Shown here piece by piece: positions 15,034 through 35,373 of a stretch of 43,123 nucleotides of DNA. The notes under the pieces were generated by a model. The model saw only the letters and a list, made by a program, of their open reading frames with translations, had not been told where the DNA came from and did no database searches. The first letter of the stretch is position 1. Each line of letters begins with the position of its first letter. Source of the DNA: Balneolaceae bacterium (lineage in GTDB: Bacteria > Bacteroidota > Rhodothermia > Balneolales > Balneolaceae); assembly GCA_007694095.1 (NCBI GenBank), contig RECI01000151.1:1-43123 (forward strand). Reading direction: 5' to 3'. A program made the translations under genes and the position numbers.

Positions 15034-15891
15034 TTAAATCCACCTTTTTAAAATTCCATCATAAGAATCTATCCTTCTGTCACGGAAAAATGGCCAGGTT
15101 TGCCTTTGTTTCTCAATTTGTTCAAAATCCACACTTGCCCTGATAATTTCTTCACCTTCGCCTGCACGTGCAATGATTTCCCCAAATGGCCCGCAAATAA
15201 AAGAATTTCCCCAAAACGTGGTTCCTCCTTCTGTACCTGTTCGGTTAATACTTGCTACAAAGCAGCCATTGGCTATGGCATGGCTTCGTTGAATGGTAGT
15301 CCAGGCATCACAAAACTGAGATTTGTCTGCTTCATTCTCTTCCGGCAGTGTACCAATCGCAGTGGGATAAACCAGGATATCGGCACCTTTCATTGCAGTA
15401 AGCCTTGCGGCTTCCGGAAACCATTGGTCCCAGCATATCAGTGTCCCGATATTGCCTGCGCTGGTCTTAAAAACCTTAAAGCCGGTATCACCCGGTGTGA
15501 AATAGTACTTTTCATAAAAACCCGGGTCATCAGGAATGTGCATTTTTCTGTAAATTCCGGCAATACTCCCATCCTTCTCAAGTACTGCCATTGTATTGAA
15601 ATAAAGCCCGGCTGACTTTCGCTCAAAAAACGGGAGAAGTATTACAATACCCAGTTTCTTCGCTAAAACCGCAAAATTTGTTACGATTTTACCATCTAAC
15701 GGTTCAGCCCATTCAAAATACCGCTGATCAATTTCGCGGCAAAAATAGGTAGTATTGAAAAGTTCCTGTAAAGCAACAACATTGGCACCCTCACCGGCAG
15801 CTTTCGCGACGAAATGATGAGCTTTGTCAAGATTCTCGTTCAGATTATCAGAACAGGAGTACTGAATCAATGCGATCTCTGTTTTTTTCAT
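15034..15891 (-). CDS. aguB: N-carbamoylputrescine amidase-like carbon-nitrogen hydrolase
   Basis: A 285-residue nitrilase-superfamily enzyme with the Glu-Lys-Cys triad: E43 in ALQELFNTTYF, K116 in YRKMHIPDDPGFYEKYYF, and C153 in GTLICWDQWFPEAARL. HIPDDPGFYEKYYFTPGD is typical of AguB, which converts N-carbamoylputrescine to putrescine, CO2 and ammonia. The usual partner agmatine deiminase (aguA) is not in this window, so the polyamine role rests on sequence likeness. The start codon lies 13 nt from the end of the dispersed element at 15905-16113. Confidence 0.88.
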   Translation of the reverse strand: MKKTEIALIQYSCSDNLNENLDKAHHFVAKAAGEGANVVALQELFNTTYFCREIDQRYFEWAEPLDGKIVTNFAVLAKKLGIVILLPFFERKSAGLYFNTMAVLEKDGSIAGIYRKMHIPDDPGFYEKYYFTPGDTGFKVFKTSAGNIGTLICWDQWFPEAARLTAMKGADILVYPTAIGTLPEENEADKSQFCDAWTTIQRSHAIANGCFVASINRTGTEGGTTFWGNSFICGPFGEIIARAGEGEEIIRASVDFEQIEKQRQTWPFFRDRRIDSYDGILKRWI

Positions 15892-16231
15892 GGATAAATG
15901 TTTGGTTCTACTGGAAACGTTGTGGATTCTGATTTGTGATGAAAATAAAGGTGTTGTTTTTTTAGCTATCAGCTGTCAGCTATCCAAATTCGTATCCCAC
16001 TGTATTATTGGGTTTAAAATTGTCACGTTTCCTCAGTATTGTAAAAAGAAGTATTATCTGAAAGCTGACGGCTGACAGCCCTGATCTTTCTTGGTCGTAA
16101 ATCATATCATGAGAATCTGCAAAAGTTAACAAAACAATCATGAAGTTCTTCTAATGAACTTTGACAACTTTTCTTCATTTTTTCCCGGTTTGTATAATTC
16201 TTACCTTTAGTTTTGTAAAAAATCAATCAAA
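15892..16231. other. Gene-free spacer between divergent aguB and deoC
   Basis: Most of the 340 nt is one copy of the dispersed element at 15905-16113. The remaining 16114-16231 is AT-rich and must carry the deoC promoter. A TATAAT at about 16192 and a TACCTTTA at about 16202 are visible, but neither has a well-spaced upstream partner. Confidence 0.6.
15905..16113 (-). repeat. Dispersed non-coding element, copy 1
   Basis: This is a diverged copy, in the opposite direction, of the sequence at 33197-33447. The segment 15905-15962 aligns with the complement of 33390-33447 at about 48 of 58 positions. Heptad arms (GCT at 15965, 15972 and 15979; CTG at 16058, 16065 and 16072) flank a core of about 75 nt. 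The far end aligns through TTGGTCG to about 16113. The end beside aguB corresponds to the end beside the prolyl-isomerase gene in the other copy. Confidence 0.75.
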
Positions 16232-31811: not shown

Positions 31812-33143
31812 ATGGAAATAATCAGAGGCGCCATAGGCATGGTGGCCATCATCGGTATTGCACTTGCATTCAGCAATAACCGCAAGGCAGTAAACTGGAG
31901 GCTTGTAGGTACCGGCCTCGGTATTCAGTTTGTATTGGCAATTTTTATTTTAAAAGGAACTGTAATGGCTGAATTTTGGTCGCCGCTTGGATGGCCAAAA
32001 GCATTCTTCAGCTGGGTGTCCAGCTTTTTTGTTATCGTTCTGGATTTTACAACTGCGGGAGCAGAATTCATCTTCGGCGACCTTGCCAGAAGCCCGGGTA
32101 TGGAGGGAAGTATCGGGCATTTCTTCGCTTTCCAGGTGCTGCCAACAATTGTCTTTTTTGCATCCCTCACCGCCATATTTTATCACTACGGAATATTGCA
32201 AAAAGTGGTGGATGTCATGTCGCGCGGCATGCAGAAACTTATGGGAACGTCAGGTGCCGAGTCTTTATCAGTTGTTGCCAATATTTTTGTAGGCCAAACA
32301 GAATCGCCCCTTGTCATAAAGCCCTACATTGAAAAAATGACCAGTTCCGAAATTCTAACAATTATGACAGGCGGTATGGCCACAATTGCCGGGGGTGTGA
32401 TGGCAGCTTATGTGCAGATGCTTGGAAATTCATACTCTATCGCACAGGGTGTGCCACTCGATGTAGGCCGCCTGCTATTCGCTGAACAACTTCTGGGGGC
32501 CAGCCTGATGGCAGCACCCGCTGCTCTTGTAATTGCTAAAATTTTATTTCCTGAAACTGAAGAATCCGTTACAAAAGGAAATGTGAAAATGAGTGTTGAA
32601 AAAACCGATGCCAACGGTATTGATGCCGCCGCAACAGGTGCAGGGGTAGGACTTAAGCTCGCACTGAATGTCGGAGCCATGCTTTTAGCTTTCATCGCAC
32701 TTCTTGCAATGGGAAACTATTTTCTATACGAAATCGGTGAAATTACCGGAATTAACGCTCTCTTTCCCGATTTTGATCTTACAATACAATCACTTCTTGG
32801 ATGGGTGATTGCACCAATTGCTTTTATTGTAGGCGTGCCATGGGCGGATGCCGTGAACATGGGCTCTTTGCTGGGCACAAAAGTTGTATTGAACGAATTT
32901 GTTGCATACCTGCAAATGGCAGATATGGTTGAACAGGGAGTGCTGAGCCCTAAAACAATTACAATGGCTACTTTTGCGTTATGTGGCTTTGCAAATTTCT
33001 CCTCAATTGCCATACAAATCGGGGGCATCGGGGGCCTGGCTCCTAACCGGAAATCAGAACTGGCAAGCTTTGGCTTGCTGGCAGTATTGGCTGGTTCACT
33101 GGCCAATCTCATGACTGCAACGATCGCAGGTATGCTTTTTTAA
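31812..33143 (+). CDS. nupC: Concentrative nucleoside transporter, NupC type
   Basis: Inner-membrane symporter that imports nucleosides with Na+ or H+. The 443 residues carry the CNT family domain order. The signature VGQTESPLVIKPYIEKM lies in the substrate site, with the second half including PWADAVNMGSLLGTK, then LCGFANFSSIAIQIGGIG near the end. It starts one base after tdk ends; transport plus kinase is a typical salvage pair and fits with the deoC group elsewhere in the window. Confidence 0.95.
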   Translation: MEIIRGAIGMVAIIGIALAFSNNRKAVNWRLVGTGLGIQFVLAIFILKGTVMAEFWSPLGWPKAFFSWVSSFFVIVLDFTTAGAEFIFGDLARSPGMEGSIGHFFAFQVLPTIVFFASLTAIFYHYGILQKVVDVMSRGMQKLMGTSGAESLSVVANIFVGQTESPLVIKPYIEKMTSSEILTIMTGGMATIAGGVMAAYVQMLGNSYSIAQGVPLDVGRLLFAEQLLGASLMAAPAALVIAKILFPETEESVTKGNVKMSVEKTDANGIDAAATGAGVGLKLALNVGAMLLAFIALLAMGNYFLYEIGEITGINALFPDFDLTIQSLLGWVIAPIAFIVGVPWADAVNMGSLLGTKVVLNEFVAYLQMADMVEQGVLSPKTITMATFALCGFANFSSIAIQIGGIGGLAPNRKSELASFGLLAVLAGSLANLMTATIAGMLF

Positions 33144-33196
33144 TTACGTTTTTTTGGTACTGCATGAAACCTTATGGGTACCGAATAGTCCCGGTT

Positions 33197-33447
33197 GTTT
33201 AATATATTTTCGACCAATGAAGCTCAGGGCTGTCAGCTATCAGCTTTCAGATTATACTTCCAATATATAGCATATTACATATGAAATATGACCCAATGGT
33301 AACCCATTACAGCGGAATATAATACTGGTTGGCTGATAGCTGATAGCTGATAGCTGATAGCTGATAGCTGATAGCTGATAGCTGATAGCAAAAAACAATA
33401 TCTTTATCTTAATCACAAAGCCGAACCCACAACGTTTCCTATACAAC
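33197..33447 (+). repeat. Dispersed non-coding element, copy 2
   Basis: Counterpart of 15905-16113 in the opposite direction. From left it has the TTCGACCAA segment, a heptad arm with GCT at 33222, 33229, 33236 and 33243, a core of about 80 nt, the array of eight GCTGATA units at 33332-33387, and a tail (33390-33447) that matches the other copy at about 48 of 58 positions. The arms are complementary and could fold into a long hairpin. It ends 22 nt before the downstream start codon. Confidence 0.75.
33332..33387. repeat. Eight tandem GCTGATA heptads
   Basis: GCTGATA is repeated exactly eight times without a mismatch at 33332-33387, then GCA. The other copy of the element has only about three degenerate units at this place, which accounts for most of the length difference. 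Such perfect arrays are expected to vary in copy number between strains. Confidence 0.95.
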
Positions 33448-33468
33448 TTTTTTTTAAGAATTTAAATA

Positions 33469-35373
33469 ATGAATCTGTTCAACACTACACTTGGCATCCT
33501 GATAGCTTTCTTTTTTTATCATTCGGATATTGGAAATCATTACATATTGCATTCCAATTCCAATCATGAAGTTATTGTGGCAACAATAAATGGCGAGCCT
33601 GTTTTTTTATCGGAATTAAGTCGCCAATTTAACCGAAACCCAATCTATGATTCAGGTAGCAGTATCAGGGAACAGCTTCAGGATTTTCTTCCGGCATATG
33701 TTTTTTACAGGCTTAAGTTATTGGAAGGTATTGAAGCAGGGTTTCAAAGCGATGAGGAACTTCTCACCGAATTCAGGACATTTGCACGTGAAGCAGCCTA
33801 TGGCTACTGGCTTGATAATACTATCAAAGAGAACATCATCAACACTTTTAAAAACAGAATGGCTGCAGAAAGGAAGGCTTTTCACATATTGACGGAACTA
33901 CCTTCCAATGCCTCTGCAATTGAAACTGAAACCGCATTCAGGCGGATGCTGGAAGCACGTGATGAACTTCTGTCTGGTACTGATCCGGAGGAAGTGAATT
34001 TAAAATTCAGCTCTTCCCGAAACGGTGTCCCTATGGGTGGTTCACTGCCCTGGATTACGGCAGGAAGAACCGTTCAGGAATTTGAAAATGCTCTATTTGA
34101 CCTCGAAGAAGGTGAAATATCAATGCCTGTCCGTTCTCAATTCGGTTACCATATTATTTTCCTGGAGAAAATTAGAGAACGATCACCCGAGCGAATGGTC
34201 AGCCATATATTTTTTCAGCCGGTTGAAGACGATTCTGTAAAAAAACGTGTAGATCAGGCTTACCGTGCACTTGCTGATGGTGAAGACTGGAACAGTGTTG
34301 CAGAACTTTACAGCATGGACAGCGCGAGTGCAACCCGTGGAGGAAATATCGGATGGGTGGGTTATGGAATGCAATTTCCTGAACCATTTGTGGATGTGGT
34401 GATGCAGACCAGAATCGGTGAGCCCTATTCTGAACCAATGGAGATGGAGTATGGATATCATATCATAAGGATTGATTCTGTACGGACCTTTGAGAATGAC
34501 GGGCAGCTGAATGAATACGTGCTTCATCAGTTAGAGCGTTTGCAGCGGCTTTCACCAGGCCATGATGAAGTATATTCACACATTAGAGAGTTAGGCAATC
34601 TGAAGATTCATGAAAATATCAGAAGTAAAATATTATCAGAGCCAGAAACCGGTATAAGTTTTCTAATGGATTATCATGATGATGTTATCATTACTTATTT
34701 TGGTGAAGATATTCCTGTAAATCGTTTCATCGAATTTCTTGAAATATCCAATCAAACCGAAAAGATAAACGAAACTATTTTCGACGAGTTTATCACTGAA
34801 TTGGTGAGAGAGTCACTAATCTGGGCAACAAACCAATACTTTCCGGAGTACCAGGCAAGTATGTCAGAGTTTTTAGACGGGCTTATCGTTTTCAAAGTAA
34901 ATGAGGAATTTATATGGAATCCGGAAAAAATGGACCGGGTAAAACTGGAACAATTCTATCTTGAAAATATCAACCGGTACCAGTTAGATCATAACTACAC
35001 CTATTACAGGTTCAGTTCAGTATCTGATAGCACGATAACGGAGGCATATGAGGCATTGAATAATGGAGAAATTCCAGAAAATATTGAAAATCGTTTTCCC
35101 GGTATCCAGGTTTTGAGTAACTCGACCAGGAACCCAAATTCAACCGCTTACTCTATTCTTGCAAATCTGAATCCCGGTGATATTTCAAAAATTGAAAGCA
35201 GCGGTTCTCTTAAATACTTTTACTATCTTGTTGAGGTTGAAGAACCTCGTTCCATGACATTTGACGAAGCTTTTTACCGGGTTGCCAATGATTATCAGCC
35301 TATTCGTGAAGAAGCCTATCTCAAGAAATTAATGGATAAATATCAGGTTGAACTTTATCCCGAAAATATTTGA
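33469..35373 (+). CDS. Peptidyl-prolyl isomerase with two parvulin domains
   Basis: A 634-residue envelope folding factor. The N-terminal hydrophobic stretch (about 5-18) is a signal or anchor. A SurA-like N-terminal region begins at IVATINGEPVFLSELSRQF. Two PpiC/rotamase domains follow, about 135-240 (ending SQFGYHIIFLEKI) and 240-345 (SHIFFQP, then MEYGYHIIRID). The C-terminal half (350-634) is helical with no motif I recognise. It is first of three related genes in a row. The next starts 6 nt after its stop. Confidence 0.88.
   Translation: MNLFNTTLGILIAFFFYHSDIGNHYILHSNSNHEVIVATINGEPVFLSELSRQFNRNPIYDSGSSIREQLQDFLPAYVFYRLKLLEGIEAGFQSDEELLTEFRTFAREAAYGYWLDNTIKENIINTFKNRMAAERKAFHILTELPSNASAIETETAFRRMLEARDELLSGTDPEEVNLKFSSSRNGVPMGGSLPWITAGRTVQEFENALFDLEEGEISMPVRSQFGYHIIFLEKIRERSPERMVSHIFFQPVEDDSVKKRVDQAYRALADGEDWNSVAELYSMDSASATRGGNIGWVGYGMQFPEPFVDVVMQTRIGEPYSEPMEMEYGYHIIRIDSVRTFENDGQLNEYVLHQLERLQRLSPGHDEVYSHIRELGNLKIHENIRSKILSEPETGISFLMDYHDDVIITYFGEDIPVNRFIEFLEISNQTEKINETIFDEFITELVRESLIWATNQYFPEYQASMSEFLDGLIVFKVNEEFIWNPEKMDRVKLEQFYLENINRYQLDHNYTYYRFSSVSDSTITEAYEALNNGEIPENIENRFPGIQVLSNSTRNPNSTAYSILANLNPGDISKIESSGSLKYFYYLVEVEEPRSMTFDEAFYRVANDYQPIREEAYLKKLMDKYQVELYPENI

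Follow-up and report, generated by a model that had tools for sequence, protein, structure and literature searches.

Two spacers of a Balneolaceae genome very probably carry decayed copies of one MITE with ISL3-type ends

Results

The two spacers and the element copies in them

The window, that is the whole 43,123-nt stretch of Balneolaceae DNA analysed here (contig RECI01000151.1, assembly GCA_007694095.1), contains two spacers that resemble each other. The spacer at 15892-16231 lies between aguB (- strand) and a DeoC/LacD-type aldolase gene (+ strand). The other, at 33144-33468, separates a nucleoside transporter gene (31812-33143) from a PpiC-type isomerase gene (33469-35373), the first prolyl-isomerase gene of the window. 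The following features were located in them; the consensus and the terminal repeat (TIR) pattern are described below.

15904..16104, + strand, copy 1 of the probable MITE, 81% to consensus positions 1-213 of 260
15904..15925, + strand, left TIR of copy 1, GGTTCTACTGGAAACGTTGTGG, 1 mismatch to the TIR pattern
15964..15984, + strand, left heptad arm of copy 1, 3 units (AGCTATC)
16057..16079, + strand, right heptad arm of copy 1, complementary
33156..33448, - strand, copy 2 of the probable MITE, full length, 72% to the full consensus
33427..33448, - strand, left TIR of copy 2, from the TIR pattern search, 20 nt before the isomerase gene start
33156..33177, + strand, right TIR of copy 2, from the TIR pattern search, beyond the extent first annotated
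33332..33390, - strand, left heptad arm of copy 2, expanded, about 8 units (GCTATCA)
33229..33251, - strand, right heptad arm of copy 2
33148..33155, + strand, candidate target-site duplication of copy 2, left flank GTTTTTTT, read from the sequence, a T run and ambiguous
33449..33456, + strand, candidate target-site duplication of copy 2, right flank TTTTTTTA, read from the sequence, partner of GTTTTTTT

The first-pass annotation had reported that the spacers upstream of aguB and of the isomerase gene align, and this was borne out. When 15892-16231 was aligned locally with 33144-33468 in reverse complement, the score was 113, against a mean of 20.1 (sd 2.6) and a maximum of 33 in 1000 dinucleotide shuffles. 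Identity was counted at 48 of the first 58 aligned, gene-proximal nucleotides, the number given before as approximate, and the complementary heptad arms around a core, the TTGGTCG motif and the AT-rich flank were present in both spacers as described. Heptad matches in the window numbered 14 against 0.62 expected, and all of them fell inside the two spacers. The same end of the element points to the start codon in both copies, again as stated before, with gaps of 12 nt for copy 1 (15904 to aguB at 15891) and 20 nt for copy 2 (33448 to 33469, isomerase gene).

The boundaries required correction. The true extent of copy 2 is 33156-33448, and its outer 41 nt, which include the second TIR, had been missed. 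Copy 1 is truncated and stops at 16104, not at the far end assigned to it earlier; about 47 nt are gone, the right TIR included. One arm of copy 2 is expanded to about 8 heptads versus about 3. Three copies (the window copy ending at 16104 and those at L038 and L058) stop almost at the same position, directly after GTAAATCA or the corresponding stretch and some 47 nt short of the right end.

A dispersed family with common terminal repeats

When copy 1 was used as a query against its own genome, 35 matches were obtained at some two dozen places. A 260-nt working consensus was assembled from the copies matched, and it detected about 28 distinct places with E values of 2.5e-8 or better. The element is thus a genomic family rather than the pair of spacers described before, and neither of the outcomes that the first-pass annotation had named as fatal to its reading, a lack of further copies and an alignment no better than shuffled sequence, was found. 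Full copies measure 260-293 nt, and no open frame was noticed in the copies. Several copies lie at the extreme ends of contigs in this assembly of 324 contigs, as expected because a repeat breaks assembly; they probably explain some of its breaks. Nearly all copies are intergenic or overlap gene ends, and their junctions are A/T-rich. Divergence from the majority sequence ranges from 4 to 28% and is about 13-16% in long copies; the median difference between pairs of copies is 25%, and the family is old and drifting.

The flanks of the copies revealed that full elements end in TIRs of about 22 nt (GGTWCTACAGGAAACGTTGTGG). The TIR pattern gave 19 matches in the own genome versus 0 for a reversed control. 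Scanning 84,980 species genomes for exact TIRs returned only 2 chance matches, within genes. The body beyond the heptads was detected in only 3 of 92 genomes of the bacterial family and was strong only in the own genome. Internally the element is a long, imperfect palindrome, and its inner arms are made of GCTATCA units, of which the left arm has about 1 to 8. The core between the arms is absent from the copy on C297, and the copy on C185 has an inverted left arm in place of the right arm; both structures are consistent with slippage and arm-to-arm recombination.

Related elements and target duplications

The TIR search also identified a 326-nt element with another interior in the own genome (G000:C153:13635-13960), with AAAAAATG on either side, an 8/8 target duplication. 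The pattern occurred in 6 of 28 genus genomes and 0 times in controls. G004 contains a 309-nt element with ATTTATAT on either side, likewise an 8/8 duplication, and G011 a 318-nt near-palindrome; a variety of similar pieces was present in G022. The C153 and G004 elements belong to related subfamilies. Within the subfamily of the window copies, the copy on C320 has flanks AAAAAATC and AAAGAATC, a 7/8 match. A target duplication of 8 bp is known for the ISL3 family. Neither window copy has an unambiguous duplication, copy 2 being flanked by a T run and copy 1 truncated.

Parts of the C153 element were found again in 9 of the 28 genus genomes, and the related elements of the genus have common ends and differing palindromic interiors. 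One module of the C153 element (L095:1608-1699, element positions 108-199) recurs at 77-85% in G004, G018, G019 and G023 and also elsewhere in the own genome, a second dispersed repeat in the genus.

ISL3-family insertion sequences in sister species

ISL3-family insertion sequences (ISs), or their ends, with the terminal repeats of the MITE were found in two sister species, G019 and G022. PF01610 matches in G022 fall within open frames of 419 codons (about 408 aa when counted from the first Met) between TIRs. IS-B is bounded by GGTTCTACTGGAAACCTTGTGGGTA and TACCCACAAGGTTTCCAGTAGAACC, and IS-A by GGATCTACAGGAAAGTTTGTGGG and CCCACAAGGTTTCCCGTAGAACC. The IS-B protein matched NF033550 (ISL3 family transposase) with E=7.5e-85 and PF01610 with E=1.2e-67. 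The copy 1 TIR agrees with the IS-B TIR at 21 of 22 positions, and the family consensus agrees with the IS-B end at 23 of 25. The right ends of the G022 ISs border A-rich DNA (AAAAAATG, AAAAAAAT and AAATATAT among others), and the right ends of several MITE copies likewise run into A-rich DNA. Neither of the two complete IS copies of G022 shows an unambiguous target duplication. An ISL3 transposon described in the literature ends in GGGTCT and has an A/T-rich duplication of 8 bp, AAAATAAG (PMC9782665).

Seven identical TIRs occur in G019, six of which run off the contig end within about 55 nt. The single one with enough sequence, on L131, is followed by a protein N-terminus with an ISL3-type zinc ribbon. 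At L131:1555-2359 the transposase frame breaks off after about 87 aa, and the sequence beyond it is unrelated and has small open frames.

Profile search found no ISL3 transposase in the own genome, although control genomes gave matches; protein search, run without a positive control of its own, found none either. ISL3 copies could have been lost in the fragmented assembly. A live partner, if it occurs in this species, would be an ISL3 transposase with GGTTCTAC ends. As far as it was read, the interior of the MITE is unlike that of the ISs, and the comparison lends no support to an origin of the MITE from an IS by simple internal deletion.

Element-free spacers in relatives

Comparison of orthologous spacers, proposed in the first-pass annotation, identified relatives with element-free spacers. 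The transporter-isomerase gene pair is conserved, and the element was absent from its spacer in all 13 relatives in which the spacer was readable. The gap in relatives is usually some tens of nt (23 in G010) versus 325 here. Subtracting the 293 nt of copy 2 and one 8-bp duplication from 325 leaves 24, next to the 23 of G010. The size difference matches copy 2, which indicates that copy 2 split the pair, probably a former operon. The aguB-aldolase spacer is 134 nt long and element-free in the nearest relative, G010, versus 340 nt here, a difference of 206 nt against the 201 nt of truncated copy 1.

Heptad arrays outside the element

Other members of the genus have GCTATCA-like arrays with no MITE body around them, as well as many other 7-nt arrays; therefore the MITE is not their general vehicle. 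The heptads were rejected as the defining feature of the family: G003, G005, G006 and G025 have many GCTATCA arrays with variable flanks and no TIR. Various intergenic tandem 7-nt arrays, often side by side, were also seen in genus relatives at L072, L071, L066, L085 and L064, and array units in the genus include GGTTATC, GACTCAA, GGTCATTC-like and GTGAAAA.

Orientation, promoter and RNA tests

By crude gene calls, and with the related pieces L095 and L097 included, the genome-wide count was 11 starts and 14 stops opposite the left end, and 13 starts and 14 stops opposite the right end. Several copies are placed where two genes converge, with a stop codon on each side. Since start and stop facing is balanced genome-wide, the common orientation of the two window copies is a coincidence of two. 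No Bacteroidota-type -7 motif was found toward aguB or the isomerase gene. The sole TAnnTTTG-type motif toward the three flanking genes, TAGTTTTG at 16208-16215, is outside the element, 16 nt before the aldolase start. Promoter-like and terminator-like sites were no commoner than in shuffles.

The consensus RNA fold had an energy of -95.6 kcal/mol, and a very stable fold is what any long inverted repeat would give. Changes in the terminal repeats were uncompensated, with 1 matched change among 3 two-ended copies, and in copy 2 only 14 of 22 positions are identical between the left and right ends. RNAalifold returned no pairs on an alignment of partial copies that overlap too little. An Rfam scan of the window found no family except a tRNA. 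No selected function of the element is supported.

Discussion

We consider it very probable that both spacers contain decayed copies of one MITE, about 260 nt long without heptad expansion, which has ISL3-type ends and would have been moved in trans. The family is short, non-coding and multicopy, has IS-like TIRs, and is missing from the same spacers in relatives. Target duplications are represented by the C153 and G004 elements of related subfamilies and, within its own subfamily, by the C320 copy, and in G022 an ISL3 DDE transposase lies between the same ends. A partner transposase in the own genome would be expected for a live family and is not needed for a relic. The family looks like a relic because no ISL3 transposase was found in the genome and the long copies have drifted by about 13-16%.

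The first-pass annotation had offered two interpretations, a mobile non-coding element with preferred insertion or one that supplies a promoter or leader. Mobility and lack of coding capacity are upheld by the roughly 28 places, the TIRs shared with ISL3, the 8-bp duplications of related elements and the element-free spacers; preference is only weak, toward A/T-rich junctions in mostly intergenic DNA. The supply of a promoter or leader was not supported, given that the ends face starts and stops about equally, that copies occur between convergent stops and that the -7 motif is lacking. A rival reading, with the element a regulatory leader or promoter that selection keeps upstream of genes and whose hairpin or heptads work at the RNA level or serve as binding sites, would fit the 12-20 nt between left end and start codon in both window copies and the stability of the fold, and in Beggiatoaceae a role in regulating translation has been proposed for heptamer repeats in front of start codons (PMC4679880). 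We nevertheless judge it quite unlikely: the copies as a whole have no orientation or start-codon bias, they drift freely, their terminal repeats change without compensation, no promoter motif points to aguB or the isomerase gene, and the same genes lack the element in relatives.

Two further explanations concern how the repeats arose. A REP/BIME-type repeat mobilised by a RAYT (TnpA-REP) enzyme would also be palindromic, intergenic and present in some 28 copies, but the TIRs of about 22 nt held in common with a DDE-type ISL3 IS and the 8-bp duplications around related elements make this very improbable. RAYT-mobilised elements are not known to have such TIRs or target duplications. The many GCTATCA and other 7-nt arrays in the genus without the element body might suggest that heptads grew independently in the two spacers by slippage and that the similarity is convergent. 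The likeness, however, is not confined to the heptads: it takes in the terminal repeats, left segment, core and right segment, all of which are found again at many other genomic places; independent growth is refuted by the non-heptad body common to both spacers and can practically be dismissed.

For the MITE, the sequences point to the following course. An ISL3 transposase, probably acting in trans, would recognise the ends of about 22 nt and move the element into A/T-rich intergenic DNA with duplication of 8 bp of target. Arm length would shift through slippage and arm-to-arm recombination between the GCTATCA repeats. We infer that movement has since ended. The two genes beside the window copies were hit by chance and not chosen. 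Side effects may still arise from a hairpin placed in the leader of aguB and between the operon genes, and any influence on aguB or the isomerase gene would be no more than that. The relic explains the puzzling upstream likeness, and the two genes are not to be read as co-regulated.

A wider speculation, which we hold to be unlikely, is that ISL3 ends in the genus form a frame that repeatedly captures differing palindromic interiors, 7-nt arms included, and that MITEs seed heptamer arrays. If true, such capture would supply the missing mechanism for how intergenic heptamer repeats spread.

In the part of the literature that was searched, no ISL3-linked MITE was found. The family adds to a known kind of element a MITE group that is linked to ISL3 and has arms of 7-nt repeats; the matching autonomous ISs were found in sister species, not in its own. 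ERIC and NEMIS-type hairpin repeats are long imperfect palindromes that fold if transcribed; they resemble the MITE in palindrome and fold, and no sequence relation is claimed. ISL3-family ISs (NF033550 / PF01610) have the same TIRs (as in G022 IS-B), A/T-rich flanks and the 8-bp duplication, whereas the MITE lacks a transposase gene and its interior is unrelated as far as read. MITEs such as the Correia elements of Neisseria and the TIMEs of Pseudomonas (PMC4133298) are alike in size (about 260-290 nt), in many intergenic copies, in TIRs common with an autonomous transposon and in lacking coding capacity. The RNA hairpin of TIMEs has about -70 to -115 kcal/mol (PMC4133298), a range that includes the present value. 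They differ in that the ends here are of ISL3 type, not Tn3 or TA-targeting, with an 8-bp duplication, that the inner arms are expanding 7-nt repeats, and that kin in the genus have differing interiors. The intergenic heptamers of MacGregor 2015 (PMC4679880), TAACTGA and relatives, are likewise 7-nt direct repeats, sometimes just before start codons, and TAACTGA is one base apart from TAGCTGA. The heptads described here, in contrast, form the inner arms of a MITE, have inverted counterparts and are without start-codon bias genome-wide.
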